DNA of 64,000 nt from the IMG/VR virus record IMGVR_UViG_3300025141_016386, positions 1 to 64,000 of that record; one strand, 5' to 3'. A program made the position numbers and the translations under genes. Below, one piece after another: positions 281 to 61,852 of the stretch (within the stretch, counting starts at the first letter, position 1; each line of letters begins with the position of its first letter). The notes beneath the pieces are model-generated. The model was not told the origin of the DNA. It worked only from the letters and a program-made list of their open reading frames with translations, and searched no databases. Source of the DNA: a virus.

Positions 281-3200
281 TCACTGCTCAATAAAGGCAT
301 AACCATTTTTCTTATCAATTGTAATTTGCATATCAACACAGTCTTTTAGGCTATCTAAGTGAGAAATTAACAAAACAGTTTTGAAATATGATCTGATGAG
401 ATCCAAGATGTCAATGAACCCCTGCATGTTTTCTTCGTCAAGGGCCGTGCCGGGTTCGTCAAGAATAAAAATATCAGATTTGGGTAGGGAGGATACACTC
501 AGTAATGACAGGCGGATAGCCATGGCAGCAATTGTTTTTTCTGCGCCAGAGCCCATCTCAAGGGGGCGAGGCTCGTGCCTTGGATGTTTGATGAAGATAT
601 CGAGGCGTTTGCCGTCATCCTCAAAAAAGACCTCAAATTCAACGATATTGGCCAAAATCTTGGCGATCTCTTCGTTGATAACTGGTAATTTGCGACGAAT
701 AACATCGTAGGCAATCCCGTTTGGGTGCATACAACGCATGTAGAGGTCGTATGCTGAAAACTCTTCCTGTAAATCTAAGTATTCCCCCTTCTGGGTCGTT
801 AAGTTGTCCACCTTTTGCTCCAAAGACCCAACGGTCTTGTATAGCGAGAGCATTGATGTATTACAATTATTAAAATTCCCTTGCAAATTTTGAGATTTAA
901 TTTTGATGGTTCTCAAGTTCTTCGTCAAATTCTCAAGGTTTTCGATAACTTCCTTATTCAGCTCATATTCCGAGACCTTCCCCTTTATTTCTTCGATATC
1001 CTTGATAAGAGATTTAATTAAAGTAGAATTTTTCTCTATTTTCAGGTCATAATTTGTTATTTTGTTGGATAATTCATTTCTTTTGTCCACCAAGCTGTTA
1101 TATTTACTGATATGATCATCGACTTGATCGGGATTGATCTCCTGGACGTCTTCGGCTATATCATCAATTTGTTCTGTGAGGTTTTCAACCTCTTTTTCGT
1201 TTAATGGGATTGTGGCTTTCGACACATATGCGTCTTTGATAAACTTGCACTTTGGATATGATGTCCCGCAAGGGATCCCGCTCAAGAGTTTTTCCTTATT
1301 TTTATTCCTTTTAAGCTCTTCTTCTTCGGAAGATAGGAGATTTTCCAACGAAGCGATTTGATCAAGAAGGTCATTGGCGCGCTCTTGTTTGCTGAAGAGA
1401 GCTTCTACATCAAAATCTCCCAAGAAATCCACAACCCTTTGGTAAGTTGCGCGGTCTTCGTCCCTACTTACCTTAAAATCCTCATTTTGATCGGAAACAG
1501 AGATCAGTTGGTTCTTCTTGTCGAGTAAATCCTGCTGTACTTTTAAAACATCGATGATTTCTGCTGGAATTGACTTTATCTTTTCATTAATTTCGGAGAT
1601 TTGAGTATTACACTCTGCCATTTTTAATTTTATGCTTTCACATGACGATTTTTTCTTTTCTAGTTTGTTATTTGCGCCTTCAAGGTCTGCCTCTGCCTCA
1701 AGAATTTCATTATTGAAGTCCCTTCCTTCTGATTTTCGGAGGGCCCCTTTCGTATCAGAAGCATCTTCCTTGGATAATTTGAATTTTCGTTCAAAGAACT
1801 CTAGATCAAGAAATTTGGCGAGGATTTCTTTCCTTCTTGTTGACCCTTCCTTGATGAAAGTTAGAGAATCTAATTGCGAGGCCATCGATGAGCACAAAAA
1901 GTCATCAAGCGTTCCAAAAACCTTACGAATGTTCTTATCAGTTTGATTTCTCGTGAGTCCGTTCAGGCTCTCGGTGTCTCCGAAATTAGGATCGTACATA
2001 TTAAAATCAACGTTAGTTTTTGCCTCTTGAGTTACTTGACCCTTCAATTTTCTAGTATATTTCTCTGATGACCTATCAATATAATAGTCTGAATCTCCAA
2101 TAGAGATTTTAACTCTTCCTTTTCCGAAATCCCGGTTTTGATTGATGATATTTAAGTTCTTGCGGTCATTTTTGGAGGTTGAATTAAAGATGGTATACAA
2201 AATTGAATCGATAATGCTGGATTTGCCGGAAAAGTTCTTCCCGAAGATGCCGACGATGCCCTCAAGGTTATCAAAATTGATACTGTTTTCTTCACCGTAG
2301 TTAAAAAGGTTATCCCACTCTATAGAGCGAAGGCGCCAATTAATATTTCTAGACACCTCTTCGTTTTCTTCTGCAATTTTATTATATTTCAGGTTAAGGT
2401 CTAAGACTCTCCTCATCAAATCGTCGTCTACTTCAAAATCTTTCAGATATTCCTTAATGAGATCTTCTTGGATGCCTATATTTCTTAAATCTTCCGTCTC
2501 TAGGCCTTCGGTAATGCCCTGAACGTTGCCGCGTTGACCTGTGGCGCGATTGAGAAAGGTGATACTTTCTGGCTTAAACCGGCGTTTAGCGACCTCTGTG
2601 GCCTTTCTCATAACATCTATGGGCAAATTGTTGTTAGAAACCAAGCGTAGTCTAGCCTCTTTCGGAACAATCTTGGATGCATTCCTTGGCATCTTACCTG
2701 TGGAGGTTAATTCAATCGTTACAAAAGGCCTCGGATTTTTAAGCTCAATATGCCGACAAGTAAAGCTTTCCTTATCTTGGATGTCCCACAATAAGAACCC
2801 CTTGTCATTCGTTTCCCCATGATTTTGCTGAATTGTTGAACCACAGTACCTAATCCTCCCCTCTTCATCTAATTTCTGATTTGTTTTGTGAATATCACCA
2901 AGAAAGCCATAGTCATGACCTTCAAAAATTTCAATTGGATGCTCGCCGTGGGTCATAACCCAGCCAGTATCAGTTTTTACTCCAGATACGGATCCGTGGT
3001 ATAGAGCGATGTTAATTTTGCTCGGATCGGATGGTTCAACCCAACCTTCTTCGTCGAAAACAGATAGTACGTTAAGCGCCACATTGGCCCCTAGAAACGT
3101 TTCTCCGGAATTCTTAAGTAAATGTAGGTTTGGGTGCGCCAAAGCGTCTGCGATGGGGGTTAAGGCGTCCTGACGACTGCTGTTTTTCAAGTTTCCATCG

Positions 3201-3439
3201 TGGTTTCCGAGGATAACATAGGTCGGGGCGATCTCAGCAAGACTGCTAAAGAAATCAGAGCACATTTCCACGAACTCTGGACTGATTTGTGTTTTTGTGT
3301 GGGCAATATCACCACAATGTACAATGTAGTCTGGCTTTTCTTTCCTCAAAATATCGTATAATTTGTCAAATACAATTTTATATTCATAATGATATTTCAA
3401 ATTTTTGATATGCGTGTCCGCAATGTGAGCAAACTTCAA
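281..3439 (-). CDS. single-chain Mre11-Rad50 (gp47-gp46, SbcD-SbcC) recombination nuclease
   Basis: About 1052 residues fuse two proteins that are normally separate. In numbering from the upstream in-frame TTG, residues 12-220 are a calcineurin-type nuclease with DTH (15-17), GD (50-51), GNHD (85-88), YHG (154-156) and GDIH (188-191). The ATPase follows, with Walker A GKNFSGKSS (407-415), a long coiled coil, a hook-like C-x6-C (731, 738) at its tip, signature SGAEK (971-975) and Walker B LDEPG (1000-1004). T4 gp46/gp47 resects DNA ends for recombination-dependent replication. The start is placed at TTG 3437-3439, giving MKFAHIADTH, because AGGAG lies 6 nt upstream; this also removes an overlap with the primase. 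C-x6-C departs from the usual CxxC hook. It sits just downstream of the primase and RuvC-like genes. Confidence 0.92.
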   Translation of the reverse strand: MKFAHIADTHIKNLKYHYEYKIVFDKLYDILRKEKPDYIVHCGDIAHTKTQISPEFVEMCSDFFSSLAEIAPTYVILGNHDGNLKNSSRQDALTPIADALAHPNLHLLKNSGETFLGANVALNVLSVFDEEGWVEPSDPSKINIALYHGSVSGVKTDTGWVMTHGEHPIEIFEGHDYGFLGDIHKTNQKLDEEGRIRYCGSTIQQNHGETNDKGFLLWDIQDKESFTCRHIELKNPRPFVTIELTSTGKMPRNASKIVPKEARLRLVSNNNLPIDVMRKATEVAKRRFKPESITFLNRATGQRGNVQGITEGLETEDLRNIGIQEDLIKEYLKDFEVDDDLMRRVLDLNLKYNKIAEENEEVSRNINWRLRSIEWDNLFNYGEENSINFDNLEGIVGIFGKNFSGKSSIIDSILYTIFNSTSKNDRKNLNIINQNRDFGKGRVKISIGDSDYYIDRSSEKYTRKLKGQVTQEAKTNVDFNMYDPNFGDTESLNGLTRNQTDKNIRKVFGTLDDFLCSSMASQLDSLTFIKEGSTRRKEILAKFLDLEFFERKFKLSKEDASDTKGALRKSEGRDFNNEILEAEADLEGANNKLEKKKSSCESIKLKMAECNTQISEINEKIKSIPAEIIDVLKVQQDLLDKKNQLISVSDQNEDFKVSRDEDRATYQRVVDFLGDFDVEALFSKQERANDLLDQIASLENLLSSEEEELKRNKNKEKLLSGIPCGTSYPKCKFIKDAYVSKATIPLNEKEVENLTEQIDDIAEDVQEINPDQVDDHISKYNSLVDKRNELSNKITNYDLKIEKNSTLIKSLIKDIEEIKGKVSEYELNKEVIENLENLTKNLRTIKIKSQNLQGNFNNCNTSMLSLYKTVGSLEQKVDNLTTQKGEYLDLQEEFSAYDLYMRCMHPNGIAYDVIRRKLPVINEEIAKILANIVEFEVFFEDDGKRLDIFIKHPRHEPRPLEMGSGAEKTIAAMAIRLSLLSVSSLPKSDIFILDEPGTALDEENMQGFIDILDLIRSYFKTVLLISHLDSLKDCVDMQITIDKKNGYAFIEQ

Positions 3440-3449
3440 ACTTTCTCTC

Positions 3450-4373
3450 CTATAAGTCAAAAATTGCAGAGATTAGTGTATCTTCTTCACTAATCCCTGG
3501 AGCTTCTTGACTTAACTTTTTTACTTCTTCTTTGGACATATCGCCTACATCCCTCTCATCATCGTATTGCAATTCTCGCACTTCAATGCCGTACTTGAAA
3601 AATAATTTTTTGATGTTATTGGCTTTGTATTTTGCATCTGGGTCTAATGCCAACAAAACCGGCGTATTGTTCTGGATTATCTTTTTGAATAATCTAGATG
3701 TTTCTCTAATTGTTGAGCCCAAAATAGGAACCGCATTATCTGCCTTGACGGCATCAAATGCTCCTTCAACAATTGTGACCTCCTTATCAAAATCGACATA
3801 TAATTCATTGAATACTATATCGCGACTGACTGGAGGATTTTTATATCTTCTATAATCGTCTGTAAATGTTCTTGCTATGAAATAATTTAAGTCTCCGTTT
3901 TCGTTAAATGATGGGATTATGATCCTTCCCTTGAATGGGCCACCGGAACAAAAGCCGATTTTCCACTTTAGGATGTCCCTTCTGCTAATGTCTCGCCCCT
4001 CAAGGTACCGCAGGGGTGCCTTAAATTTGCAGTTTCCAGTTAGGGTGTGAAAGTTTGGAGGCATTTCAACGATTTGTTCAAAATTGTCTTCACCCCCTTC
4101 CTCGAAAAGGCTTTCGAAGTCATTTAGGTCTGCCTTGTCTCCAGAAAACGCCTTCCACGCTTCTCGGTCTTTTTGTGAACCAAATTTGCGGACCAATCGA
4201 TAAAGATTTCTACCCTTCTGATCACAAACCCAGCACTTGTAGACACCGCGATGGATGTTGACAGAGAATTTCCTTTTGTGATGTTTACAATAAGGGCATT
4301 GAAAAAGATGCTCATCGTTTGACTTGTAATAAGAGCCAAGAACATTAGATAATAGAGAGATTTTTTCTTTCAT
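3450..4373 (-). CDS. DNA primase, zinc-finger plus TOPRIM
   Basis: This 307-residue protein matches small phage primases that make RNA primers for lagging-strand synthesis. An N-terminal zinc finger has CxxC pairs at C26/C29 and C47/C50. The TOPRIM core shows the glutamate motif VEGAFDAV (E203) and the metal-binding LALDPD (D244, D246), followed by DVGD near 272-275. There is no helicase domain, so the helicase must be separate and is not in this window. A consensus promoter ends 6 nt before the ATG, so the transcript may have almost no leader; no normal ribosome site is visible. It ends 10 nt before the revised start of the gp47-gp46 fusion. Confidence 0.88.
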   Translation of the reverse strand: MKEKISLLSNVLGSYYKSNDEHLFQCPYCKHHKRKFSVNIHRGVYKCWVCDQKGRNLYRLVRKFGSQKDREAWKAFSGDKADLNDFESLFEEGGEDNFEQIVEMPPNFHTLTGNCKFKAPLRYLEGRDISRRDILKWKIGFCSGGPFKGRIIIPSFNENGDLNYFIARTFTDDYRRYKNPPVSRDIVFNELYVDFDKEVTIVEGAFDAVKADNAVPILGSTIRETSRLFKKIIQNNTPVLLALDPDAKYKANNIKKLFFKYGIEVRELQYDDERDVGDMSKEEVKKLSQEAPGISEEDTLISAIFDL

Positions 4374-4379
4374 ACCCTT

Positions 4380-4408
4380 AGTATAGCATCTGATATCTTC
4401 TTTGTCAA
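4380..4408 (-). promoter_or_regulatory. sigma-70 promoter upstream of primase
   Basis: On the minus strand TTGACA (4403-4408) and TATACT (4380-4385) are separated by exactly 17 bp. The expected start of transcription lies about 7 nt past the -10 box, which is at or next to the primase ATG at 4373. This suggests a leaderless or very short-leader mRNA. The other bases of 4374-4424 hold nothing else that I recognise. Confidence 0.8.
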
Positions 4409-4424
4409 GAACTATTTTAGCTTT

Positions 4425-5018
4425 TTACTCTGGCTCTTCGACAGCGTATCCTTTTTTTCCAAATAAATTCTTATTATTGACAAATTTCTTTATCATGGTA
4501 TCAATATCTGGTATCGGAGCATCCGGATTGGCGTTCATCTGTGTTTTCACATCTTTAAACATTTTTTCCATAAATTCTTTTTCTAAACCATCATCAACTA
4601 GTTTTTGAAGGCCGTCGTCTAAATTGAATGCGTCTAAAACTGGAGTTGCCTTGGTGACCTCATCCGGCTCTTGCGCATATGCTTTATATAATCCCTTCAC
4701 CCTCAGGGCTATATTTTTGGTGGCGGCGATAGTACCAACAAAAGGTACAAAAGAAGCCGCCAGATCTATCACGTCGCTGCCCAAATCTTTTGCTAATTGA
4801 GCTTGCTTTTCTCGATTTATCTTTCCTTCTTTTGACGCCTTGGCAATTTCCAGGGCTTTGCTCAACTGTCTCCAGGTTACTTTTCCGGACTTCATTTTCT
4901 CTCTTGACTGGGTGCGCTCATCTTCCTGATCCTGTCTTTGCGCCTCCTCTTCCCATCCTTCTTTTATTTCTGATGTATAATTTCTCCAACTTTCCATCAA
5001 TAACTTCATTTTAGACAT
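4425..5018 (-). CDS. unknown protein, probably virion-associated
   Basis: The start is set at ATG 5016-5018, giving MSKMKLLMESWRNYT, because GGGAG precedes it at proper spacing and it then no longer overlaps the RuvC-like gene. The protein has about 197 residues. A charged helical N-terminal third is followed by a short hydrophobic stretch (VIDLAASFVPFVGTIAAT) and a helical C-terminus ending KKGYAVEEPE. The opening KLLMESWR resembles the short N-terminal peptide seen on several proteins of large aquatic phages, which I have not seen assigned a role. No enzymatic motif was recognised. Confidence 0.6.
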   Translation of the reverse strand: MSKMKLLMESWRNYTSEIKEGWEEEAQRQDQEDERTQSREKMKSGKVTWRQLSKALEIAKASKEGKINREKQAQLAKDLGSDVIDLAASFVPFVGTIAATKNIALRVKGLYKAYAQEPDEVTKATPVLDAFNLDDGLQKLVDDGLEKEFMEKMFKDVKTQMNANPDAPIPDIDTMIKKFVNNKNLFGKKGYAVEEPE

Positions 5019-8757: not shown

Positions 8758-11385
8758 TTACAATTCATTTTCTACTTTAAAAGTTACGTTTAAATCCAAT
8801 TTTTTACCAGTATGCCTAGAAATGAGCCGAATTTTGAAAGTTTGGCCGGTTTCACTGTCCCCGAAAAGCCTTGGGCTCTCAGTTCCCAAAACAATGTCTG
8901 GCTTATGTTTTGCCACACTATTAACCAAAAGGCCCGTCTCGGAGATTAAGCCTGAAGCCTCATAATCAATTTGTATTTGCGGAAGGGATGGAACTATTTG
9001 TAAGAATTTTTTGAATTCTATAGAATTTTGTTTCGGCTTTTCTGGAGGGCGCATTTCAATTATTTCGACCAAGGGATAAATTGCCCCAGAATCATTAATA
9101 ATCATCACCTTATATACCGGCGATGGGTAAGATTTATGATTATGTATGTCAACAGACCTTACCATATAATAATATTCCGTATTGGGAACGATTGTGTCTT
9201 CGTATGAGGAATCCCAAGAGTAAATTGCTCTAGAGGAGTCACTCTGAAGAGTTGATACCGCGCTTTTGAGATTATTTGAAAAATCTTCATATGAAATTGG
9301 TGCCTTTTCCATCCTATAAATCTCAAAGGCAACAGTTTCATCATCTGTTTTATATGTCACGGGAGAGTCTATTGACATGCCTCGCGAATTTTGGAGGGAT
9401 TCGATAAAATCAAAATCTTCTGAATTTAAAATTACCGGACTATTTGTGTATTCCCCTATTTGAGAGTGCATATTGATGGTCACCTTATTGTCTACCCCCA
9501 CATAAGTTATAAAATTAATATCAGGAATCATCGGAGGGTCATCCAAGATTGATCCATCAAAATCAAATAAATGAGTCTTGATGAGGTCTATGGTTGGCTC
9601 CGTAATGACATCAATTTGAAAATAGTCAACGTTGATATCCGGTGCTGAGCCCGGATTCTGCCCAAAATCGAGTTTTGGATCCGCGACCTGGCGCGCGCCG
9701 GTCAGACGCGAGTCCGAAAAAGATCTTTTGGACCCCGCAATTGCGGGCCCCGCAAAATCCGGTGCTGAGCCTGGATTCTGCCCAAAATCGAGTTTTGGAT
9801 CCGCGACCTGCCGCGCACCGGTCAAACGCGAGTCCGAAAAAGATCTTGTTGGGGAAACGAAAGAGGTCTGAAATGTTGACATGTCGTAAAAATATCTTGT
9901 TCCCACTACAGCACTATAAGCAAACACTCTGTAGAAATATTGCTTATTATATTTCACCTGGGTATCAACATATTCAACTGGATCAACCTGATTGATGTTT
10001 GGGATCCAAATATTTTGAATTGGAGTTGGTGCGTCCGGAGAGGTGTATTTCTCTACCTTATAGAAGACTATTTCCGAATAACTTTTTTGACCTGCATTTA
10101 ATTCCTCAAAAGATCTCAAGTTGTCCCTTGTGATGTCCTTTATTTTTCCGAGAAAAATAGCTGACGATAGAATTTGCTGTAGCGCGGACGTGTTTCCTTT
10201 CGCAATATTGATGGATAATGTTTCTGATCCCAAATAGATTTTATTATCTGTTGCAAATTCTGTTGTTAACCCTTCTAAGATCGTAGTAAGGTCACGCGAC
10301 CAATCCAACAGATTTAAGGTTTCCAGACTGATGGTTGTTGTGACATCCTCGTGGTCATCTTCATGCACGTGTGTTGGGTCAATGTGTTCCTCGTGGTCAT
10401 CTCTTATCTGTGTTTTTTGAAAAAATTTGCTCTCTTTGGCACTCGTATCAAAACTTTGGCGGCTGGCAAGATCTATTAGTGTGGCGTCCAAGTTGGATTT
10501 GTTTAGGGCGTCATAAAAGACCGTCATTCCGGAAATAACAGAGTTGTTTGGGGATAATTTAATTTCTAGAGGAAATACTTTATCGTATCCGTTAAGGGCT
10601 TCAAGATCTTCATAGTTATCCATAGAAATTATAATATTTTCATATGATTTATCTGCCGACGAAGGTGATATATTGCTCGCGTATTCATCTAAGAAGGAAT
10701 CAGGAGGAGGTCCATTGGTTGTTATTATTTTATAAAAATTAGGAAGAGACAACTCCGATATTGACGGTGCGCTTGTTGCATCTTCATAGCTCTTTTCTAA
10801 AAAATTTATAAGAAATTCTTCCTTAACCTCATTTGATCCCCGAAGCGGATTTGTGGTGGTAGAAAAATCCTTTACCACGATTGGAGGGATCACATCATAT
10901 ACGATATCCTGTATTGGGAAATCCGATGTGTGGTTTTTAAAATAATCAACAAAATTCGCCTCTACATATCCTTGAAAGTCGGATTGCGGGTCGGCAGTAG
11001 AAGTCTGAAGCCCTGGTAATTTTTTAGAGATGGGGCGCCCTAAACTCTGGTTGTAGCCGGATGATCCCGGTTGTTTTTGCTTTTGACTAATAGGGTCGAA
11101 GTAAGCGCTGGTTCCCATCTCTGGATTGGTGGTTGCTATTCCGGTTTCTGAATTTGATCTCGCAGAGACACCGAATGATGCATCTTTAATAATCTTTATC
11201 CTTTGCCTTTTCTGATAAAGGGAGGTCGGGCTATCCGTCATTATTGAATTTGAATAGGAAGGTATTAACTTAGTCGGGGATCCCAGAACTGATGTTCCAA
11301 AGTGTGCACCTATCCAATAGGAATTTATTTCCATCCTCAAAGGATCATCAATGTCTAAAACGTATGTTATTCTTCTATCTTCCAT
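8758..11385 (-). CDS. large tail protein with fibronectin-like segments and in-frame repeats
   Basis: An 875-residue structural protein. Two segments have the FN3-like strand pattern Y-x-Y-x-V (KQYFYRVFAYS near 495-505 and TEYYYMVRSVD near 755-765), suggesting beta-sandwich domains. A His/Asp-rich stretch (HEEHIDPTHVHEDDHED) near 335-352 could bind metal. About 30 residues are duplicated at exactly 40-residue spacing (around 520-590), encoded by unusually GC-rich DNA. Another segment, about residues 77-105, is nearly identical to part of the upstream-encoded 1233-residue protein. No enzyme motif was seen. A role as a fibre or baseplate-attached protein is inferred from position. Confidence 0.7.
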   Translation of the reverse strand: MEDRRITYVLDIDDPLRMEINSYWIGAHFGTSVLGSPTKLIPSYSNSIMTDSPTSLYQKRQRIKIIKDASFGVSARSNSETGIATTNPEMGTSAYFDPISQKQKQPGSSGYNQSLGRPISKKLPGLQTSTADPQSDFQGYVEANFVDYFKNHTSDFPIQDIVYDVIPPIVVKDFSTTTNPLRGSNEVKEEFLINFLEKSYEDATSAPSISELSLPNFYKIITTNGPPPDSFLDEYASNISPSSADKSYENIIISMDNYEDLEALNGYDKVFPLEIKLSPNNSVISGMTVFYDALNKSNLDATLIDLASRQSFDTSAKESKFFQKTQIRDDHEEHIDPTHVHEDDHEDVTTTISLETLNLLDWSRDLTTILEGLTTEFATDNKIYLGSETLSINIAKGNTSALQQILSSAIFLGKIKDITRDNLRSFEELNAGQKSYSEIVFYKVEKYTSPDAPTPIQNIWIPNINQVDPVEYVDTQVKYNKQYFYRVFAYSAVVGTRYFYDMSTFQTSFVSPTRSFSDSRLTGARQVADPKLDFGQNPGSAPDFAGPAIAGSKRSFSDSRLTGARQVADPKLDFGQNPGSAPDINVDYFQIDVITEPTIDLIKTHLFDFDGSILDDPPMIPDINFITYVGVDNKVTINMHSQIGEYTNSPVILNSEDFDFIESLQNSRGMSIDSPVTYKTDDETVAFEIYRMEKAPISYEDFSNNLKSAVSTLQSDSSRAIYSWDSSYEDTIVPNTEYYYMVRSVDIHNHKSYPSPVYKVMIINDSGAIYPLVEIIEMRPPEKPKQNSIEFKKFLQIVPSLPQIQIDYEASGLISETGLLVNSVAKHKPDIVLGTESPRLFGDSETGQTFKIRLISRHTGKKLDLNVTFKVENEL
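9637..9847 (-). repeat. in-frame GC-rich direct repeat, 2 x 91 bp at 120-bp spacing
   Basis: Copies at 9637-9727 and 9757-9847 differ at about four positions. The 120-bp period keeps the reading frame (40 residues). The unit is clearly more GC-rich than the flanking gene and is full of palindromes: CCGGTGC (9759-9765) faces GCACCGG (9815-9821), CCAAAA faces TTTTGG across 5 nt, GGATCC, a GGCGCGCGCC core in copy 1, and a 14-bp palindrome in the linker at 9734-9747. This is like the palindromic coding elements (RPEs) of Rickettsia in form; relation by descent is not implied. Confidence 0.9.
11071..11158 (-). repeat. 88-bp coding segment shared with 13184-13271
   Basis: This stretch encodes about 29 residues around NPEMGTSAYFDPISQKQK and matches 13184-13271 in the neighbouring gene with a single mismatch visible by eye. 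Both copies are in frame and in the same orientation. Flanking bases (a GYNQSLG or GHNPSLG-like tail) are less well conserved. Confidence 0.9.
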
Positions 11386-11386
11386 C

Positions 11387-14300
11387 TTAAGTTATTTTCC
11401 TCGACCCAACACTAATTGATTTTAGTGCTTGCGTTGGGATTTCTTCTATCGTCGCCCCCTTGGGCTCTTTTACACTTCTCTTTGCCTCCCTAGAAGGTGC
11501 ACGACCTGTTTCGCTACCTCGATGGTCGATATGTGCAGAACCGGGAGGTGCCGATAGAGAGGCCTCATTTCTTGTGATTAAGAAATAGGTATTTACCTCA
11601 ACCATATTTAATCCAAATGGGGTGTCGGGATTGTCCTTCCTCTCTACCATACACAAAAGAACATCAGATTTATTGTTTTTATTTTTCAAGTTCCTCAAAA
11701 TTTTAGACCACTCTTCCTTAGTGGGCGTTTTAAAGACTGGTCTTTTTATCATAAAATTACCATTACTATCATTTTTATATCCCGCGAAAACAGAAATGTT
11801 AGCTGCCATACCCTGAGTAAGGCTTTGTTTTGGCGAATCTTTGGGAGAGCTTGTTGAGTTTGACCTGTTTTTTATAAATCTTCCGGCGCGCCCACGAGAA
11901 GGGGAACCATTGGCTCTTGGAGTCGATGTATCAAATTTTCCGTTCGTGGCCATAATGTTTGCCAATTCTTGAAAGAGGGGTCCTGCATTGGATTCATTTT
12001 TATATAATTCCATCGCCGTTGCGCCATCGTCGGTGGTGGACGATTGGTCACATGATGCACCCTGTGGCGGCCTTGTACTTTTACTCTGCAAATCATCGGG
12101 GCCCAAGATATCTGATACCGGAATATTCAAAGATATCTTATTTTGACCTTTTGTTAAATTTTCTTGCGCTGCCATAGGGGTGCGGATAGGCTCGACTTGA
12201 ACGTTCAGAACACTCATCAGATGACCTAAATTGCCTTGATTTGTCGAATTGGTCGACGGTATGTGGCCAATAGACTGTGCTACAACTTTATTTTGAAATT
12301 CTGAATATTGCGACGGCTCATCATAATTATCTACTGCGATGGAGCGCTCTATATACGTCCCATCATTTGCGTCAAGAATCCCCGGAGTTATTTGGGGGAT
12401 GACTGGCGCCTGAGCTGGGGACGGCAATATCGTGTGTTGGACCTCTGTCAGTTCCTGGCTATCCTCGGGGGCCAGAGGTGCGCTGGTGACGGCGGATTTG
12501 GCGGCCTCCACCATCCCTTCTTCATCTTCCAGCCTATCTTCAAAAGTGCCAACAGTTACTGCCGCCACGGTCGTCTCTTTTTCGTCGAGGGCCATTTTAT
12601 CGGCATTTAAACTATCAAGATCTCCCTGTGCAGCGTATGGTGTGCCGGCGGGTGGATTTGGAGCGGATTTGGTGCCGCGTGAGTTGGCGAAGCCAATATA
12701 ATCCACGGACGGAAATGTAGATAGTCGTGCGTCAAATAGCTCAACAAAATAGTCCTCAAGTTCGATTACCGAAACCTTCGAATTCCTGGGTGTTCCTCTA
12801 CGCTTTGTTGAGGAATCTGGTATTTCTATCTCTGCGCTTGGGCCCATCATATCTCTGATTTTTTGAGTTAATAAGTCTATGGCGTCGATAACTGAAAGAA
12901 TAGTCTCTGAAGTAGCTATCGCCGGGTTCAACGAGCTGCGGAGCGAGAAGGCTGCTGACTTTGGATCAAAGGAGCTGGAGTATTTCTGCGGTTGGATTAG
13001 ACCAGGGCCTTGATCACGCGTGGGACCCTCTAGGGTGGATTTTTTTGAAAAGGAGCTGGAGTATTTCTGCGGTTGGATTAGACCAGGGCCTTGATCACGC
13101 GTGGGACCCTCTAGGGTGGATTTTTTTGAGCCCACAGTCTTCATTGTGAACCCCAAACTCGGGTTGTGGCCGGGTGTCGCGAATTGTTTTTGCTTTTGAC
13201 TAATAGGGTCGAAGTAAGCGCTGGTTCCCATCTCTGGATTGGTGGGTGCTATTCCGGTTTCTGAATTTGATTCTAATTTTGCTTGCGTTGTCATGAGGGA
13301 GGAGGAAGTTTGAATTCTTTTTGATGTAGATAAAAATGAAAAATCAGAGATTGCCGTGAGGGTGTCGACGATATATGCCGGAGCGAGAATCCACGGGTAT
13401 AGCCGCTCTTTATCTTTCAGATTTCCAATTAACATTCCCATTTCTCTTCCCAACCCTGCAATTTCTGCCCTCTGCTCTCGGTCTACTCGGTCGCGTCGAT
13501 GAGAGGATAATTCATCTAACAAGACGTCATAATATTCTTTAACAGATTTTATTCTTTCATAACTCTTTGTTGGTATTTGAACTAAATTATAATATCCCAC
13601 CAGATATTCCCTAATTGATCTAAGTCTCTTGAGCCTCTCATTTAAGAATCGGATTGTGCCGTCTTCTATTTGTATTTTTACGCCGTATTGAAATGTTCCG
13701 TCTGTAAGATCCCGGATTGATGTGTCAGTGACTGCTATTGTTTTTGTTTGGCGGGGGGAATTACTTATCGGCGGCAGTTCTTTTATGCCTCCTATTAGAT
13801 TATTTTTCTTGTTACCTCTCAAGAATCTCCCCGCCCCAAACGCCCTCATTTCTTTTAGGGCGTTGTTTTTTGATTGATCGGAATAAGTTTCCACGATTAT
13901 TTGAGTTTCAAGATTTAATTCACTCCTACTTATTCCAAGATTTGCCGAAGATAACCTATTATATCCCCTTGCGACCTCAACCTGCCTTCTTGTGATTTGC
14001 AGATTTGTTATTTTTGAATATAAACTTATTTTTTGCTTTGTTTCACGCGAGACAAAAGGGTTTGTTAAAATTTTCCCGAATTTACTCTCCTTAATAAGGG
14101 TATTTTCATAATCAAATTCAAAAATAAATTTACAATTATTATTTCTATCCCTGGATAAGAACGCGTTCGAAATATACGCATCTGGATTTTCGATTGAATT
14201 GTCAAAAACATCCCTGCCTTTAATAACTATTGGGGAAGTTCTGGATTGTACCAAATTCACATTGAGGCTCGGCATTTTACGAAGTATTCTGAGGTCTTGT

Positions 14301-15088
14301 ATTTTTGTATTTTCTACCTCTATTTTTTCCAAATCTATTTTTGGAGATGCTTGCTTTAACTGGGGGGCGCCATTGGGTGTAGGCATCCACCTTGCCGCAC
14401 ACCAAGTTCCCGGAGCGTTGCCGTTTTTTATTTCCAAAACCGGACCTGACCAGAAAGTTCCTCTCAGTTCTTCTGGGAATTGAGACCTTACATAAAAAAT
14501 GTAAGAGACAGAGTTAACTCGGCCACTCGAAATAACCCTCTCTCCGGCGAGAGGGCCAGTTGTTGGCCCTAGGGCTGGGACGTTTGCTATTCCTAACGTT
14601 TTTGCTAAAGATTCTAGGTCCAGATAACAGAATGCGTAATAAGAAAGGTGTGGGATATTTTCTGAATCTTCTATAGTGTCTTCTCTTTGAAATGAGACTT
14701 TGGTTTCTTGATTTTGTGATTTGTTGTCTTTTAAAATATTTTTAAGTGGGCCATGAAATATTTCTTTTACGGCGCCGGTATTGAGTGTTCCAGCATTCTC
14801 TGAAGTTTCTATCCTTTTTGATTCTTGGGCGCTAGTGGACCTAACAACACGAATATTCATATGATCAATTAAATTAACATTCGAGGAGAATAGAGAGTTG
14901 GACATCTTTATGTTCATGCTCATATCTAAATCAATGGCTAAACTCGATCTTTCGCCCCCGAGGGGCCCAGTAGTTTGGTTTTTTAAATCTAGAGTTATTT
15001 TATCAAAAGTAACCGCCGGAATTATCGATGCTACCGTATCATTCGATAAGATTGCGCCCGATGGGGATATCGATGTATACACAGCCAT
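11387..15088 (-). CDS. large virion protein with in-frame repeats
   Basis: A 1233-residue protein with mixed beta-rich and low-complexity regions. The middle contains a perfect tandem 27-residue duplication (around residues 655-710, STLEGPTRDQGPGLIQPQ), preceded by the segment shared with the 875-residue protein. The short peptide TTGPL[GA]GER occurs near residues 37 and 178, the second encoded by DNA holding two adjacent hairpins. The C-terminal third is rich in Pro, Ser, Asn and Ala and looks disordered. No enzymatic motif was recognised. It lies between the 330-residue and 875-residue structural proteins and is probably a tail or baseplate appendage component. Confidence 0.68.
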   Translation of the reverse strand: MAVYTSISPSGAILSNDTVASIIPAVTFDKITLDLKNQTTGPLGGERSSLAIDLDMSMNIKMSNSLFSSNVNLIDHMNIRVVRSTSAQESKRIETSENAGTLNTGAVKEIFHGPLKNILKDNKSQNQETKVSFQREDTIEDSENIPHLSYYAFCYLDLESLAKTLGIANVPALGPTTGPLAGERVISSGRVNSVSYIFYVRSQFPEELRGTFWSGPVLEIKNGNAPGTWCAARWMPTPNGAPQLKQASPKIDLEKIEVENTKIQDLRILRKMPSLNVNLVQSRTSPIVIKGRDVFDNSIENPDAYISNAFLSRDRNNNCKFIFEFDYENTLIKESKFGKILTNPFVSRETKQKISLYSKITNLQITRRQVEVARGYNRLSSANLGISRSELNLETQIIVETYSDQSKNNALKEMRAFGAGRFLRGNKKNNLIGGIKELPPISNSPRQTKTIAVTDTSIRDLTDGTFQYGVKIQIEDGTIRFLNERLKRLRSIREYLVGYYNLVQIPTKSYERIKSVKEYYDVLLDELSSHRRDRVDREQRAEIAGLGREMGMLIGNLKDKERLYPWILAPAYIVDTLTAISDFSFLSTSKRIQTSSSLMTTQAKLESNSETGIAPTNPEMGTSAYFDPISQKQKQFATPGHNPSLGFTMKTVGSKKSTLEGPTRDQGPGLIQPQKYSSSFSKKSTLEGPTRDQGPGLIQPQKYSSSFDPKSAAFSLRSSLNPAIATSETILSVIDAIDLLTQKIRDMMGPSAEIEIPDSSTKRRGTPRNSKVSVIELEDYFVELFDARLSTFPSVDYIGFANSRGTKSAPNPPAGTPYAAQGDLDSLNADKMALDEKETTVAAVTVGTFEDRLEDEEGMVEAAKSAVTSAPLAPEDSQELTEVQHTILPSPAQAPVIPQITPGILDANDGTYIERSIAVDNYDEPSQYSEFQNKVVAQSIGHIPSTNSTNQGNLGHLMSVLNVQVEPIRTPMAAQENLTKGQNKISLNIPVSDILGPDDLQSKSTRPPQGASCDQSSTTDDGATAMELYKNESNAGPLFQELANIMATNGKFDTSTPRANGSPSRGRAGRFIKNRSNSTSSPKDSPKQSLTQGMAANISVFAGYKNDSNGNFMIKRPVFKTPTKEEWSKILRNLKNKNNKSDVLLCMVERKDNPDTPFGLNMVEVNTYFLITRNEASLSAPPGSAHIDHRGSETGRAPSREAKRSVKEPKGATIEEIPTQALKSISVGSRKIT
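12971..13129 (-). repeat. perfect tandem repeat, 81-bp period, in frame
   Basis: Copies at 12971-13048 and 13052-13129 are identical over 78 bp, with a 3-bp junction. The period is 27 codons. Perfect identity at synonymous positions indicates recent duplication or ongoing homogenisation. The unit holds an ACCCT/AGGGT inverted repeat around CTAG and is more GC-rich than its surroundings. It sits about 55 bp from the segment shared with the neighbouring gene. Confidence 0.93.
13184..13271 (-). repeat. second copy of the 88-bp shared coding segment
   Basis: Partner of 11071-11158, about 2.1 kb away in the next gene upstream, same orientation and same frame, one mismatch by eye. Confidence 0.9.
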
Positions 15089-15145: not shown

Positions 15146-16138
15146 TCATTCATTCTCACAGACAGCCCCAGTCTTGCCCTCTGCGTATGGGCTTATCATA
15201 AACGGAGAAGACTCACCATCCTCACACTCAATAGATGTATCTATATAAATTCCCTTGGATTTAACACTGTTGATTCCTTCGCAAAGATCTCTTTTCGATA
15301 TTTTAGAGTCTGTCTGAAGATCAAAATAATATTCCACGAAAGTATCATCCAGTTCCACTTCGGGGGATGGCTTTGAGTCTACAATAAGTAAATTATTGAC
15401 AATTGTTGGATCCTTTTTCATAAAAGATAAGGGAGAAAATGAGCCATCAGAAGAATCAACCGTGAATACCTCTATATCAAAGTTATTTTTGTCGAAATTT
15501 ACGCCCGACTCTTCTATCATCAATAAAAGATTTTTATTTCCGCCACCGAATGAAATATTTAAAGAAGATCCATCTCGAAAAATAATATTCTCGACGTCTT
15601 CTTCGGAAATTCCTATCTTTTTTTCCGTCTCATCTTTATCCAATGTCTTCGCAGTATAAATCAGATTTAAATTAACCTGCGGGATTCTCAACGTCTGGTA
15701 TGAACTTGTCAAAAAATAAGAAGCATTTTTAATTTCCCCCTCCAAGAGCGTTATTTTCCAAGTGGGCGCCGAAGTCGATTGAAAATCTGACTCTCCCATT
15801 GAATTTACTAATGAAAATTCTTTCTCCGGGGTTGATTGTACTCTGATTCTATCTACCTCTGGAATAGTGATGTCTTCATGGGCATTCAAATATGACGAGA
15901 AATTAGTCTCTACAGATGTGAATAAGTGCTGCGTCTTATTTTGTGGTGTTTTTTCTTGAATTCTACCTTCTGTGTCATTTTGATTTTCCTCGAAAGAGGC
16001 ATGTGCAGAATCATATAAAATATTGTCATCATAAAATGCATAATAAACCGGCTTAAATTTTCCTGTTGATAATAGTTGCTTTCCAAATTGTGTTAATTTT
16101 ATATCTAGAACTTCTTCTTTCTTGTTAAAAAATGTCAT
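15146..16138 (-). CDS. virion structural protein with LTxxGK-type N-terminus
   Basis: This 330-residue protein begins with EEVLDIKLTQFGKQLLSTGK followed by FKPVYYAFYDDNILYD, the same pattern found at the start of the 324-residue protein at 7740-8714. The rest is acidic, with a Gly-rich FGGGNKN stretch and a C-terminus rich in Asp and Glu. Its start overlaps the stop of the upstream LamG gene by four bases. A structural role is inferred from the gene block and from the shared N-terminal domain. Confidence 0.68.
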   Translation of the reverse strand: MTFFNKKEEVLDIKLTQFGKQLLSTGKFKPVYYAFYDDNILYDSAHASFEENQNDTEGRIQEKTPQNKTQHLFTSVETNFSSYLNAHEDITIPEVDRIRVQSTPEKEFSLVNSMGESDFQSTSAPTWKITLLEGEIKNASYFLTSSYQTLRIPQVNLNLIYTAKTLDKDETEKKIGISEEDVENIIFRDGSSLNISFGGGNKNLLLMIEESGVNFDKNNFDIEVFTVDSSDGSFSPLSFMKKDPTIVNNLLIVDSKPSPEVELDDTFVEYYFDLQTDSKISKRDLCEGINSVKSKGIYIDTSIECEDGESSPFMISPYAEGKTGAVCENE

Positions 16139-19100
16139 TTCTTTCTTTTACCTGCCTTCTTTCTTTTGGATTTTGGGCGGCCTTTTCCAACTTTCAACGG
16201 ATTCTCTGAAGCTTCTGCCGCTTCTTTGGCGGGCCCACTAGACTGGGGGGCTTGACCGAATCCTATTTTTGTATCGATGTTTACAAACTCAACGAGCGAA
16301 AAGAAATCATAGGGCCAATTGTAACTAAATGGGAATTGTTCTGTCTTCGGGCCCGATTCTTTCGAAATCTTGCTAAAATAATTATTGTTAGCTTTTTGCT
16401 TTACCTTGAAAACCATCCACTGCAAGCCATCCTTAATCGGATCCTCGCTTTCTTGCCCGAACGTTCCCATTAATTCGTTGGCTAAAAGCTTGTGGGAAAT
16501 TTCAACCTCCTTGTTGATAAATTTCGCGCTTCGATTTGGAGGAGAAATATTTTGCCACATATATGCCAAGTCATCTTGAGTGAAGGTATAATCAAATTCG
16601 AAGATGTACATCGCAAATGGTGTCACTTTGCCTAAATTTTGTACGAAATCCATATTTGGCGGGAATACAAACTTTTTCATTTTATTAACCATATCTCTTA
16701 TTGTGTCTGAAACTTTATCGGAAGTGTCCTCGTCTCGATCGAGTTGGTTCGCCGTTGTGGTGCCGGCAGCTGCCGCTGCGGCTCTTACTTTTGCAGCGCG
16801 GAGGTCACCCTTATTATCAAATAAATCTTTATTATCGTCGAGGCCTCGGATGGCAGATTTGATGGCTAGGCTAGATTGACTAATTGATTTATCAGAAGAG
16901 ATTATATTAAGGTCACCAATGGCGCGCCTTATAGCATCCTCGGGAATTTGAAAAAATTGTTTTTCCCCGGCCTTAATTATAAAGGGTACAGCAACAACAG
17001 CTTCGGAAACAGTTAATGATTTAGCAGTATTTCCCATCTTTTTGCTAGATTCAAAGCCAACTAATTTACTTAAATCTTTAAAATTATCATTTTGATATAT
17101 ACTCAAATCTATACCGGACAATAACTCTGTCTTGAATCCACGATTGGGATCTGCGTATCCCCTAACCTTTCTCCACTTATTTGGAATACTATCTACTTCA
17201 ATATAGATTCCTTTGTCAGATTCGAGAGTTCCAAACTGATGCCACATTCCTCTTGGTACCGATTCTGAACCGTTTGTTGGTATTGTGAGAGAATTACTGG
17301 CGCTCGATATTGGACGAATTGATGTTTCTGAATTGAAATTGTAGTGTGGTGTTTCGAACTTTGGCTCGATGACCCACCTGTCTCCCCTCTTTCCAAGCAA
17401 ATTGAATGAAGAATCTAACTTCATGGCATTAGCGTTGGCATGAGAGGTTCTCATTGGGGCGTTATAGTCATTAACTTCCGAAATCTCGTTACTGCTCCAA
17501 ATGGCCTGCTGGCGGGAATCTCCATAAAGAGTTCCAGTTACAGAGCTGGTTATTCCATTCAAGATGGGGTCCGCATCAATTCCCCATAAATTAACCGTCA
17601 CATTTGAAAGAATTTCATCTAGCGTCACTCTTCCGGTCTCCGAGGCCTTATAAACAATGTCTGCCCAAGACTCTCTCCCATAATAGGGGGGAGTATATGA
17701 TGGGTCTATCCCCATCAAACTATCAGATGGGTATAGATCGGTATTATAATCAATATTCGCCATTTGATTCGGAATAAGACCAGAACCTAGAAGTTGGTTT
17801 TTAAATCCCAGATAAGATGTTGCAGCAACTGGGGGCCCAAAAGCAGATGGCCGGCTGTACATCGTAAAAGTTTCTCTCAAATTCTCTGTCTGGCCAAAAA
17901 GAACTCTTGGGTCCTGCGGAACATCGTAAGTTATTACCGATTCATCATGCGCATAAGTTCTCCATATGCGGTTTTTATTCATTGTTCTTCTTAATTTTAC
18001 CCTCATGCCATAAGATGTTCCAGACTGAACTGTGGCGAAGTCACTTTCTGACTTACTCTTTAAGCTCGTAAACTCTCCGTTTGGCAAGAAAAATTCTGGA
18101 ATTGCTGCGAGGTAATTGTGCATCATCCTCTTATATAGATCATCTCCTTGGCCAGACCACTTCGCCTGCACATCTATTGCAGAACTGGGATGGGGCTCCA
18201 TATCATAAAATTTAACCCCAGCAACATACCTCTCGGGTTCGATTACCGCCTCAAAAGGTATCCTCAAATCCCAGCTAGACGTACCTTGATAATCTTCATC
18301 ACTCTGATCAGTGTTGGTACCCAAGGCATAATAATCTGAATAGTAGTCTTTACGAGGAAGTTTCTGGTAGAACGATTTGTAGTTAATAACTTGGTAGGAG
18401 CTAGTATAGATTGGGAAATCCACAGCGATTCCTGATTTTATTGTGTTATAAACAATACCGGGCCTGAAAAACGGTGTTAAAAATGGTCTGAATTTTGCTT
18501 TTGTCAAATTTTTATCCAACCCGCTATATTCTATAAATTTTCCATAAGATTTCGAAAATTGATTTGCAATCTGTAGGCTTCTCTCTGAAGGGAAGAACCC
18601 ATCATAAGGTAGAAATTTCATTAATGCCTTACATTTCATAGCGATTGTAGAAGGGCTGGCGAAGCCCTCATGGTCTTTCTTGATCACAGAGAAGTGCCTT
18701 AAAAAATCAGAATTAGAAAAAATTTCATAAAATCCGTTTTCTGAACTATCCGTGGGTACCCTGGATGAACCAGTAGAGGTACCCTTTATTTTTAATTGCG
18801 AGGGATTTGGTGATAGAGAATTACCCTTTTGTTTATTTAAATAAAAATCTATTTGATCACTTATTATAAATTCCGGAACGATTGAATAGTCCTGATTTTT
18901 CAATCTCATATTCTGGTTATATTCTTGATAAGTATTATATGATGGCAACTGCGAAGAGCTAACCCAGGTGCCATTGACCAAATAGCCAGCCAATCTGTCA
19001 GATTCCCATTCAGCCGAGCCTCCACATGTCTGAATTGCTCCGAGGGGCGTCCTATAAACAGGAAAATTAGAGCCTGGAGGCCCAGAGACGGGATATTGAT

Positions 19101-20670
19101 CTCTCCAAGCTGCGATTGAGGCGCTAGTTTCTGGGATTGGCATTGATAGGGTTCTATTGTAATAATCCTGCGATGCGGGATATGATGCCTTTGGTGGGGC
19201 CCATCCAAAATGGGTTGTCGAAAAGACAGAACTAAGAGAGTGTTTCCTGTTGTAGATTGGAGATGCTATTAAATTCTGTTTGTTTGTGTTATTGGATCCG
19301 GCTGGACAGGGGCCTGTGTTTTTGAAGTCTAGATATGTTTGTAATACACCAACACTTTTGTCGATCGATAAAACTGGATATCCATCTCCTGTTGCGTAGA
19401 AAAATTGATCTCCGTAGTATGACGGGCCCCACTCCCACCCAACAGCGTTTACGGCGCGCGCAACCGAACAATTGCCGGGCATGGACTGATCCCAAGATGC
19501 GCTTCCTGGGCTATCGCCCGGGCCAGTGCCGGCGGCCCCTTCGGCTCCGGGAATTGGCGCCGAACAAGTGATGGCTCCGAGTCTATAATATCCAACCGGG
19601 CGCTGATCTAAATTGTAAAAAACAGGCAACTTTGTCATGTCGGGAGGACAACCACCATTATACATCAGGGCCGAGAGGTTTTCGTTGAACGAGTGCAGAG
19701 AATAATTGAAAATACTTAATTCAGAAATTTCCCCCTGAAACACATTATTAATAAAATAATTAGGATTTGCAATTTGAGATCCCGTTATGGTATTAAATTG
19801 GAGATCCGATCCTGCGTTATTACCTATCGCGCCAGTTGACGGGTTGATTTTTCCATAAATCGGGAGCGCGCTGGGTGGTGTAATACCCGAAGTGTTTCCG
19901 AGGGACGATAATTCCCCATTAATATAAATTTTAATTCTCTCGTCGACTTCCGATTCTATATCTGGAGTAGTGGCGTCATAACATACTAAGACGTGTGACC
20001 AATCATTTTGCGGGATTGTCACGCTTGAGGTTGCAAAATCAACCATATAGCCAGAGCTATAGGATAGAACGGTTTCTGATCCAACATAATAGTCGACAGC
20101 GCCGGAAAAGGGGGATCCGCCTGTCAGAAAAAACCTAACAGAACATGTGGCGGCGGTTAATCCAGCGGAAGATGTGGGGTGATCCGAAGATTGAAAAGAG
20201 ACTATGTTGTATGGTTTGCCGGAGAGGAGGCCGGCGAGCCCCGTATTTCTTCCTCGGGGATAAACCCAAGCAGAAATACTATATGCGTTCGGAGTACCCG
20301 CAGGTGCGGCGTTTCCAACAGCGTGTTCTGCAAATGTTCTCGGATTGGTTTTCCATCTGGGGTCTCCGCTGTTGTATCCCACCAAACGAGACCCAAACCT
20401 TAAGGGAATAGTGTCTGCGGCGCCGGGAGAGACTGCAAGTTCGACATTGTCGACACTACAGCTTAATCCCCACGAACTAGTAAAGAGTGAAGATCCAAAA
20501 CATTGAGAATAATTATTTTGTAATTCCCCAGCAGAACCCGAGATACCATATTTTGGTCCGGAAGTTTCGTTAACGTCTGCTGATGTATATATTGGCGCTG
20601 TTGTAAATTCTTCTACTGCGTCCAAAGCCCATGCGCTTTGTGATATATTATAGCCTTGCGAATTTGGCAT
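16135..20670 (-). CDS. giant tail protein with LamG/ConA-like domain
   Basis: The start is set at ATG 20668-20670 (MPNSQGYNIS), where GGAGATGATTG precedes it and TGATG couples it to the upstream stop; a TTG one codon earlier is less likely. About 1511 residues. Residues near 120-340 have the LamG/concanavalin-like pattern: SISAWVYPRG, then WSHVLVCYD, IKIYINGELSS, GEISELSIFNYSL and LMYNGGCP. The C-terminus is basic (GRPKSKRKKAGKRKK). A short Ala-rich stretch (RAAAAAAG) lies near residue 1300. LamG domains in tail proteins may bind glycans or serve as assembly modules. The function in adsorption is inferred. Confidence 0.75.
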   Translation of the reverse strand: MPNSQGYNISQSAWALDAVEEFTTAPIYTSADVNETSGPKYGISGSAGELQNNYSQCFGSSLFTSSWGLSCSVDNVELAVSPGAADTIPLRFGSRLVGYNSGDPRWKTNPRTFAEHAVGNAAPAGTPNAYSISAWVYPRGRNTGLAGLLSGKPYNIVSFQSSDHPTSSAGLTAATCSVRFFLTGGSPFSGAVDYYVGSETVLSYSSGYMVDFATSSVTIPQNDWSHVLVCYDATTPDIESEVDERIKIYINGELSSLGNTSGITPPSALPIYGKINPSTGAIGNNAGSDLQFNTITGSQIANPNYFINNVFQGEISELSIFNYSLHSFNENLSALMYNGGCPPDMTKLPVFYNLDQRPVGYYRLGAITCSAPIPGAEGAAGTGPGDSPGSASWDQSMPGNCSVARAVNAVGWEWGPSYYGDQFFYATGDGYPVLSIDKSVGVLQTYLDFKNTGPCPAGSNNTNKQNLIASPIYNRKHSLSSVFSTTHFGWAPPKASYPASQDYYNRTLSMPIPETSASIAAWRDQYPVSGPPGSNFPVYRTPLGAIQTCGGSAEWESDRLAGYLVNGTWVSSSQLPSYNTYQEYNQNMRLKNQDYSIVPEFIISDQIDFYLNKQKGNSLSPNPSQLKIKGTSTGSSRVPTDSSENGFYEIFSNSDFLRHFSVIKKDHEGFASPSTIAMKCKALMKFLPYDGFFPSERSLQIANQFSKSYGKFIEYSGLDKNLTKAKFRPFLTPFFRPGIVYNTIKSGIAVDFPIYTSSYQVINYKSFYQKLPRKDYYSDYYALGTNTDQSDEDYQGTSSWDLRIPFEAVIEPERYVAGVKFYDMEPHPSSAIDVQAKWSGQGDDLYKRMMHNYLAAIPEFFLPNGEFTSLKSKSESDFATVQSGTSYGMRVKLRRTMNKNRIWRTYAHDESVITYDVPQDPRVLFGQTENLRETFTMYSRPSAFGPPVAATSYLGFKNQLLGSGLIPNQMANIDYNTDLYPSDSLMGIDPSYTPPYYGRESWADIVYKASETGRVTLDEILSNVTVNLWGIDADPILNGITSSVTGTLYGDSRQQAIWSSNEISEVNDYNAPMRTSHANANAMKLDSSFNLLGKRGDRWVIEPKFETPHYNFNSETSIRPISSASNSLTIPTNGSESVPRGMWHQFGTLESDKGIYIEVDSIPNKWRKVRGYADPNRGFKTELLSGIDLSIYQNDNFKDLSKLVGFESSKKMGNTAKSLTVSEAVVAVPFIIKAGEKQFFQIPEDAIRRAIGDLNIISSDKSISQSSLAIKSAIRGLDDNKDLFDNKGDLRAAKVRAAAAAAGTTTANQLDRDEDTSDKVSDTIRDMVNKMKKFVFPPNMDFVQNLGKVTPFAMYIFEFDYTFTQDDLAYMWQNISPPNRSAKFINKEVEISHKLLANELMGTFGQESEDPIKDGLQWMVFKVKQKANNNYFSKISKESGPKTEQFPFSYNWPYDFFSLVEFVNIDTKIGFGQAPQSSGPAKEAAEASENPLKVGKGRPKSKRKKAGKRKK

Positions 20671-41895: not shown

Positions 41896-42588
41896 TTAAA
41901 GTAAATTATTTTGATTTTTATATAATTTTTCTGCCACTTCAAACTGCCATTCATAATCTATGTCAAAACTTTCAAGCTCTTCCATAACAAAAAGATCGAG
42001 GTTGGGAGGAGATTCAGTGTTCATCCAATAACCTTCGCCAATAATATCCATTCTGCTGGCATATAAACAGTGGGCAGCTTCGTAAATAGGGTCCACAAAT
42101 TTAGTATTCATTGAAGTAATTCCTTTCCAATCGGTTAAATTATTTTTATTCTTATCCCAGTAATAAGTCTTTTTTTCAAAGACTGCAAAGCAATTATCTT
42201 CTTTTGAAGATAAAAAATGCTCAATAAAAGAATCAATAGTCTCTATTTTCAAAAGGGGATTGCAGGCGCTCACCATTATAACATACTTATATGGTAAATT
42301 ATGCCATTCAAAAATTTCTTGTAGTTCTATTCCTTCTGAATTTAAAGACCTTTGAGATCGTTCGAAAATATTAATGTTATGCTTTAATCCTATCTTCTTT
42401 AATTCAATATCGCACACAGAAAAATAAATGTTTTCTCTTGGAACTATGGACGATTTAGAGAGCTTTTTGAATAGTATATCAACCAACGTTGTACCTGCGA
42501 ATGGTTTTATCATTTTTTGAGGTACTCGGGTGGATTCAAGGCGAGCTTGGACCATTATGCAGATCTCTGAAATTTTTTTATTATTCAT
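41896..42588 (-). CDS. CMP-sugar (nonulosonate) cytidylyltransferase, SpsF/NeuA-like, copy 1
   Basis: 230 residues. It opens with the nucleotide-binding motif MVQARLESTRVPQKMIKPF, the SpsF/NeuA/KdsB pattern of enzymes that activate sugar acids with CTP. IMVSACNPLLKIETID carries the expected mid-protein motif, and FDIDYEWQFEVAE is the C-terminal signature, with Asp residues for metal. It is clearly paralogous to the enzyme at 45460-46161 along its full length. The substrate is inferred from neighbours to be a pseudaminic or legionaminic-type acid. It is the last gene of the sugar island. Confidence 0.78.
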   Translation of the reverse strand: MNNKKISEICIMVQARLESTRVPQKMIKPFAGTTLVDILFKKLSKSSIVPRENIYFSVCDIELKKIGLKHNINIFERSQRSLNSEGIELQEIFEWHNLPYKYVIMVSACNPLLKIETIDSFIEHFLSSKEDNCFAVFEKKTYYWDKNKNNLTDWKGITSMNTKFVDPIYEAAHCLYASRMDIIGEGYWMNTESPPNLDLFVMEELESFDIDYEWQFEVAEKLYKNQNNLL

Positions 42589-42596
42589 CGGCAGTC

Positions 42597-43874: not shown

Positions 43875-43898
43875 AGTTAATTCTCCTTATTGATTATT

Positions 43899-47060: not shown

Positions 47061-47260
47061 TCGGAACTTCCAGTTTTATCATTGTCGGCCAATTGTTCTA
47101 AGAGAATATTTATATCTCTATCGCATTTCTTTATTTTTTTAAAAATATTTCTAGCGCTGACCGGATCTAGTTCAAAGGCCAACCTAACTACGTCCATCCA
47201 ATGAGTATTGTTAGATGTTCTTATTTTTTGAATCTCTCCAATGATTTCTTCATCGGTCAT
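47057..47260 (-). CDS. small helical protein of the sugar island
   Basis: 67 residues, helical and charged (MTDEEIIGEIQKIRTSNNTHWMDVVRLAFELDP). I associate similar short proteins with sialic-acid-type gene clusters, but cannot name a family with certainty. It overlaps both neighbours by a few bases, so it is an integral operon member. An accessory or scaffolding role is possible. Confidence 0.55.
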   Translation of the reverse strand: MTDEEIIGEIQKIRTSNNTHWMDVVRLAFELDPVSARNIFKKIKKCDRDINILLEQLADNDKTGSSE

Positions 47261-48235: not shown

Positions 48236-48239
48236 AATT

Positions 48240-61832: not shown

Positions 61833-61852
61833 GATAACCTATATTAGTATGC

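Follow-up and report, generated by a model that had tools for sequence, protein, structure and literature searches.

In-frame repeats in two adjacent genes

The window, i.e. the whole stretch of 64,000 nucleotides analysed here, corresponds to positions 1-64,000 of a 68,074-bp viral record that is itself a partial genome. Two adjacent genes in the window, coding for p875 and p1233, carry three families of in-frame repeats (Table 1). The first of these, unit A, was described in the original prediction as two 91-bp copies at 120-bp spacing that are duplicated in frame in a tail gene, and self-comparison reproduced this description: the coordinates hold, the copies are 96% identical, the start-to-start distance of 120 nt equals 40 codons, and both copies are in frame in the p875 ORF, which is open throughout. 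The 68,074-bp record contains these two copies of unit A and no others. Self-comparison also identified two further families near unit A, B and C, that the original prediction had missed.

Table 1. Features of the p875/p1233 locus (positions refer to the window)
Feature	Position	Strand	Description
p875	8758..11385	-	tail-cluster protein of 875 aa, FN3-like domains; contains family A and one B copy; orthologues with conserved gene order
Loop 1 of p875	10981..11163	-	aa 75-135; 61 aa here, 0-32 aa in relatives; low AF2 confidence
Family B, copy 1	11038..11158	-	in loop 1 of p875; SNSETGIATTNPEMGTSAYFDPISQKQKQPGSSGYNQSLG
Loop 2 of p875	9622..9867	-	hypervariable; aa 507-588, flanked by strands 483-508 and 588-611
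Unit A, copy met first in p875	9757..9847	-	aa 514-543; peptide RSFSDSRLTGARQVADPKLDFGQNPGSAPD
Unit A spacer	9728..9756	-	unique, GC-rich; 29 nt, about aa 544-553, FAGPAIAGSK; 14-bp perfect palindrome inside
Unit A, second copy in p875	9637..9727	-	aa 554-583; same peptide, 4 synonymous differences
p1233	11387..15088	-	1233-aa neighbour protein; contains B copy 2 and the tandem C copies
Loop 3 of p1233	12944..13291	-	aa 600-715; length 116 aa in the window, 7-11 aa for most relatives
Family B, copy 2	13151..13271	-	in p1233; SNSETGIAPTNPEMGTSAYFDPISQKQKQFATPGHNPSLG
Family C copy	13049..13129	-	81 bp; 100% identical to partner; SKKSTLEGPTRDQGPGLIQPQKYSSSF
Family C copy	12968..13048	-	81 bp; half of a perfect head-to-tail pair in p1233

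The two copies of unit A are translated into one identical 30-aa peptide and differ at four synonymous and no nonsynonymous sites, an outcome with a chance probability of about 0.005-0.01 for this sequence. This pattern suggests that the peptide matters and, because the copies differ at synonymous sites only, it looks as if the peptide rather than a DNA structure has been conserved, with four differences being a small sample. The unique spacer that parts the copies implies that the duplication was no clean head-to-tail event. Family B is 121 nt long, about 92% identical between its copies and in frame in both p875 and p1233. Given that the first 88 coding nt of the B copies contain one difference and the last 33 nt about 10, mostly nonsynonymous, B looks like an older duplicate, the core of which may have been re-homogenised by recombination. 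Nothing pointed to a dedicated mechanism of mobility for the 121-bp B module, which is present in the two adjacent genes.

An assembly artefact would be a trivial explanation for repeats in a single metagenomic contig, and the 100% identity of the C copies is what misassembly could give. We find this explanation hardly credible: there are four differences between the A copies and about 11 between the B copies, with the frame kept throughout, and a unique spacer lies between the A copies.

The repeats map to loops of low predicted order

Gene order and fold suggest that p875 is a tail protein, and a baseplate wedge homologue is present in the same cluster. In an AF2 model of p875 built on 22 sequences (mean pLDDT 72.7), residues about 616-767 have an FN3 fold that matches many FN3 chains in the PDB (VIA Z about 9, rmsd 1.9-2.9), and a first FN3-like domain at about 434-611 is less certain. 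A Pfam scan gave no FN3 match for p875 of the window. In a Foldseek comparison with viral models, unnamed viral proteins ranked top, followed by tip attachment protein J. Loop 2 lies between two long strands of the first FN3-like domain and, judging from the predicted model, is probably its F-G loop.

In the same model, pLDDT is below 50 at nearly all of residues 75-130, at 331-348 and at 513-583, and these stretches cover B copy 1 and both A copies. Similarly, a fragment model of p1233 has low confidence (about 31-54) over most of residues 585-705, where B copy 2 and family C are located. The A-bearing loop (residues 513-583) is presumably disordered and surface-exposed. Pfam matches of the modules to Synapsin_N, PDE6_gamma and BrnA fell below the cut-off and were rejected. 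Elsewhere in the window, at 281-3460, one 1059-aa ORF, as read from its sequence, appears to join a gp47-like phosphoesterase and a gp46-like ATPase.

The loops are variable in relatives and unit A is absent from the relatives searched

No relatives were found with single-sequence p875 as a direct query. Relatives (designated by L numbers) were reached by a scan with the gp46/47-like protein, which gave 47 loci, most with conserved gene order and a p875 orthologue, and by a p875 profile scan, which found 340 relatives of which 80 were kept. In the closest relative, L003, gp46/47 is 92% identical to that of the window and p875 about 50%.

Across 78 orthologues, loop 2 varies in length from about 3 to 380 aa and, close relatives excepted, its sequence is unrelated between orthologues, while it is bounded by a conserved TQVKYNK..YxYxVxAY segment and an EPTxDLI...DDPP segment. 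Even between the window and L003 loop 2 is only 28% identical as compared to 58% and 68% for the flanks, and several relatives have almost no loop at these sites. The site in p1233 that holds B copy 2 and family C spans 37-72 aa in L008, L044 and L003. In most relatives, the loops that carry families B and C in the window are short or missing. Units A and C were not found in any relative searched, and a separate search of 26 relatives' records for unit A was likewise negative. The comparison of orthologous tail genes proposed in the original prediction thus revealed relatives without unit A and with different sequence in its place; an ancestral domain repeat, which would place the unit at one and the same site in every distant orthologue, does not agree with its absence from every relative searched. 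In L008, the p875 loop that holds unit A in the window carries a B-like peptide, GIVTTNPNLGAGLGFDPYGQK (41% identity over 44 aa, E 3e-5; 4.8e-5 for that genome).

Several other features of the relatives were observed. The start of gp46/47 in L047 is 97% identical to that of the window, and since p324, p325 and p392 are only 45-64% identical, a recombinant junction near gp46/47 is suggested for L047. At window positions 16135-26597, and in L055 and L058, a gene split or fusion is seen: L008 and L013 have a single ORF of 3477-3557 aa in place of the two, of about 1512 and 1975 aa, that the window and L003 have. Direct repeats of 50-90 bp, possibly regulatory or intergenic, are present in L003 (14589-14656/14934-15001), in L005 (14893-14981/15177-15264/21305-21373) and, in similar form, in L020 and L021. 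Large complex repeat arrays are located at two places of one contig in both L022 (1-860 and 6600-7200) and L023 (1-890 and 7140-7600).

Unit A as a proposed palindromic or mobile element

Unit A was originally taken to be much more GC-rich than its gene, packed with palindromes and equipped with facing CCGGTGC/GCACCGG ends, and was on these grounds compared to Rickettsia palindromic elements (RPEs). Each of these properties is present in part. The GC contents of the copies, 0.59 and 0.56, exceed those of most 100-nt windows of the p875 gene (roughly 0.34-0.48), but the excess is weaker than claimed and is owed in part to amino-acid composition (R, A, G, P), because third-position GC is 0.57 and 0.50 in the copies as compared to a gene value of 0.38, and because a value of 0.56 is reached by about 6% of the 30-codon windows across the phage. 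In comparison with dinucleotide shuffles, six-base palindromes are in excess over the whole 211-nt A stretch (10 observed vs 4.5 expected, P 0.01), but less clearly so in copy 1 (5 vs 2.1, P 0.07), and the most prominent palindrome, of 14 bp (CCCGCAATTGCGGG, 9734-9747), lies in the spacer, outside unit A. A 10-bp palindrome of copy 1, GGCGCGCGCC, is lost from copy 2, and the inverted ends are exact in copy 2 only, copy 1 reading GCGCCGG. Folding of unit A as RNA (z-scores -1.46, -0.49 and -0.95) and as DNA (-1.42 and -1.20) revealed no significant hairpin. With unremarkable folds, ends that are exact in one copy alone and a GC level that about 6% of windows reach, the DNA-structure side of the original observation is weak.

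RPEs are described as palindromic elements of about 150 bp with multiple integrations into genes that are unrelated to each other (PMC10969869). Unit A resembles them in being in frame, in coding for an unstructured protein segment and in its size range of about 90-120 bp (PMC10969869; Ogata et al. 2000, 2002), and its open frame, the pLDDT below 50 and its absence from orthologues are what in-frame insertion of an RPE or coding MITE into an unstructured segment would give. An RPE- or MITE-like palindromic coding element that enters tolerant loops by dedicated or hijacked mobility would also account for the GC content of unit A relative to its gene, for the presence of family B in two genes, for the B-like peptide of L008 at the site of unit A and for the palindrome in the spacer. 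Unlike RPEs, the repeats have neither a significant hairpin nor a dispersed family: unit A is confined to one gene and family B to two adjacent ones, no copies dispersed in unrelated genes were found in the 68-kb partial record, and no homologues of unit A were found in the 26 relatives' records or in collections of viral contigs, phages and plasmids. The sole match in a genome collection, to the Aminicenantes MAG L074 (71% over 21 aa), is isolated, has no unit repeat around it and was rejected as a chance match. Moreover, families B and C lack the palindrome excess, and no Y1 transposase was found in the (incomplete) record. With the hairpin, dispersal and homologue tests all negative, we rejected an RPE- or MITE-like origin of unit A, and we consider this explanation of the repeats very improbable.

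Two other element classes were considered. No RVT_1 reverse transcriptase was detected in the (incomplete) record under conditions in which the controls were, and the differences between the B copies are not confined to adenine positions; therefore, the repeats were rejected as targets of a diversity-generating retroelement. Palindromic amphipathic repeat coding elements (PARCELs) are 25-aa DUF285-type tandem repeats (PMC2996958), which, like the modules described here, are short, protein-coding and to some degree dyad-symmetric. A Pfam scan of the modules gave no match to DUF285.

Duplicated and shared modules are sporadic

To what extent p875 orthologues and their neighbours carry internal repeats was scored in 146 proteins by a diagonal scan that recovers units A and C of the window. 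Apart from the two proteins of the window, a single protein, of L136, had non-trivial internal repeats; in L136, repeats of about 21 aa (SSGRDPFQTLSNDRDPQ) lie in an ORF (310-4899) adjoining the p875 orthologue; all other matches were low-complexity or marginal, and several relatives hold low-complexity tracts in these proteins. Repeats of the A, B and C kind are rare in the orthologues and so provide no support for a general repeat-generating mechanism. The loops are always variable and module duplication is sporadic.

Sharing of a module between p875 and p1233, as for family B, has a parallel in L013 and L035, in which a different 30-aa module is common to p1233 and loop 2 of p875, and the peptide is kept with divergence being largely synonymous. 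Such sharing was found in 3 of the 17 genomes in which both proteins were identified and in 3 of 81 in a wider set. In a test of same-genome against other-genome pairs, the own pair of L005 came first, but barely and outside the loops; because a clear signal is confined to the window, L013 and L035, p875/p1233 sharing is no clade-wide rule.

These observations bear on the possibility that the window's modules A, B and C, like that of L013/L035, are portable docking motifs for a common virion partner, e.g. an adhesin, with selection both for the presence of a motif in p875 and p1233 alike and for its multiplication. Family B in both proteins, an unrelated module that is common to and kept in the same two proteins of L013 and L035, and the B-like motif at a different p875 loop in L008 are all in line with docking peptides. 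Given that sharing is restricted to so few genomes and that most changes in the diverged last third of B are nonsynonymous, we regard this scenario as distinctly unlikely. A related scheme, in which portable in-frame peptide modules circulate among the exposed loops of the two neighbouring tail proteins, are copied between genes by recombination and are under selection as docking or receptor-binding motifs that can replace one another, we likewise regard as unlikely, if slightly less so; if true, it would describe a modular form of tail variation that leaves folded domains untouched.

Origin and retention of the repeats

By combining these data, we suggest that unit A is probably an in-frame segmental duplication in a hypervariable, presumably disordered tail-protein loop, which would have arisen by ordinary recombination or slippage and the peptide of which would have been retained for function. 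In this model, (i) the loops of p875 and p1233 turn over fast as short in-frame segments are gained, duplicated in tandem and exchanged, (ii) three segments, A, B and C, were duplicated in this lineage, with ordinary phage recombination or slippage in replication as the putative source, and (iii) duplicates would be retained because the peptide acts, most likely by providing the virion with a second copy of a peptide for binding or spacing. The candidate target of the duplicated peptide would be the host receptor or a partner tail protein touched by both p875 and p1233. A loop that varies in all relatives, the absence of unit A from them and two more in-frame duplications in equivalent loops fit the second reading offered in the original prediction, a recombination-prone module for tail variation; the first, a mobile coding element of the RPE type, is unsupported for the 91-bp unit.

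Alternatively, the repeats may be functionless products of neutral linker drift, in which disordered loops tolerate in-frame duplications. Hypervariable loops that are nearly absent in several relatives, a fresh perfect duplicate in family C and low-complexity tracts in several relatives are all compatible with drift, but the A copies differ at synonymous sites only, four in number, and the L013/L035 peptide was kept while its synonymous sites diverged. Thus, we consider drift an unlikely, though not a negligible, explanation.

In-frame duplications in tail genes are known from other phages. In Pseudomonas phage K8, the gp6-like wedge protein gp075 carries a 7-aa in-frame duplication with an effect on host range that was shown by testing (PMC9887876), and an in-frame tail-gene duplication with an effect on host range is cited there for T4 gp37 (Tetart et al. 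1996, cited in PMC9887876). The repeats described here are of the same kind, i.e. lineage-specific, short, in frame and in a gene with a putative tail role: as in K8 and T4, a short duplication in a tail or baseplate gene is found within a lineage and is missing from relatives. Unlike the 7-aa duplication in K8 gp075, the units here comprise about 27-40 aa, lie in predicted disordered loops and include one that is common to two genes. FN3 F-G loops bind ligands in fibronectin (RGD loop) and in monobodies (PMC7140400). p875 shares with F-G loop proteins and the phage tip attachment protein J an FN3-like fold with a variable loop after the YxYxVxAY-bearing strand, but its loop, the putative F-G loop, is far longer (to several hundred residues) and predicted to be disordered. 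While duplications in tail and baseplate genes are known, an FN3-type loop that varies throughout a clade and modules common to two neighbouring tail proteins are new here.

If the modules are functional, an FN3-like loop of the F-G type would be a natural site for peptide insertion and duplication in uncultivated phages, as in engineered monobodies, and the modules would point to exact candidate residues for binding of a receptor or partner in a widespread phage group (340 relatives in one scan). If they are functionless, they would still provide a clear example of the growth of disordered tail loops.

Two further features of the window lie outside the tail cluster. An AT-rich intergenic array of degenerate 9-bp TTAGAGTGT-type units is present at 61840-61966. 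A sugar-nucleotide cluster at 41896-50891, near glycosyltransferase-like ORFs, codes for NeuB, a DegT-type aminotransferase, a Polysacc_synt_2 protein, a formyltransferase and two paralogous CTP_transf_3 cytidylyltransferases that are 42% identical, and in its predicted gene content resembles a nonulosonic-acid pathway.
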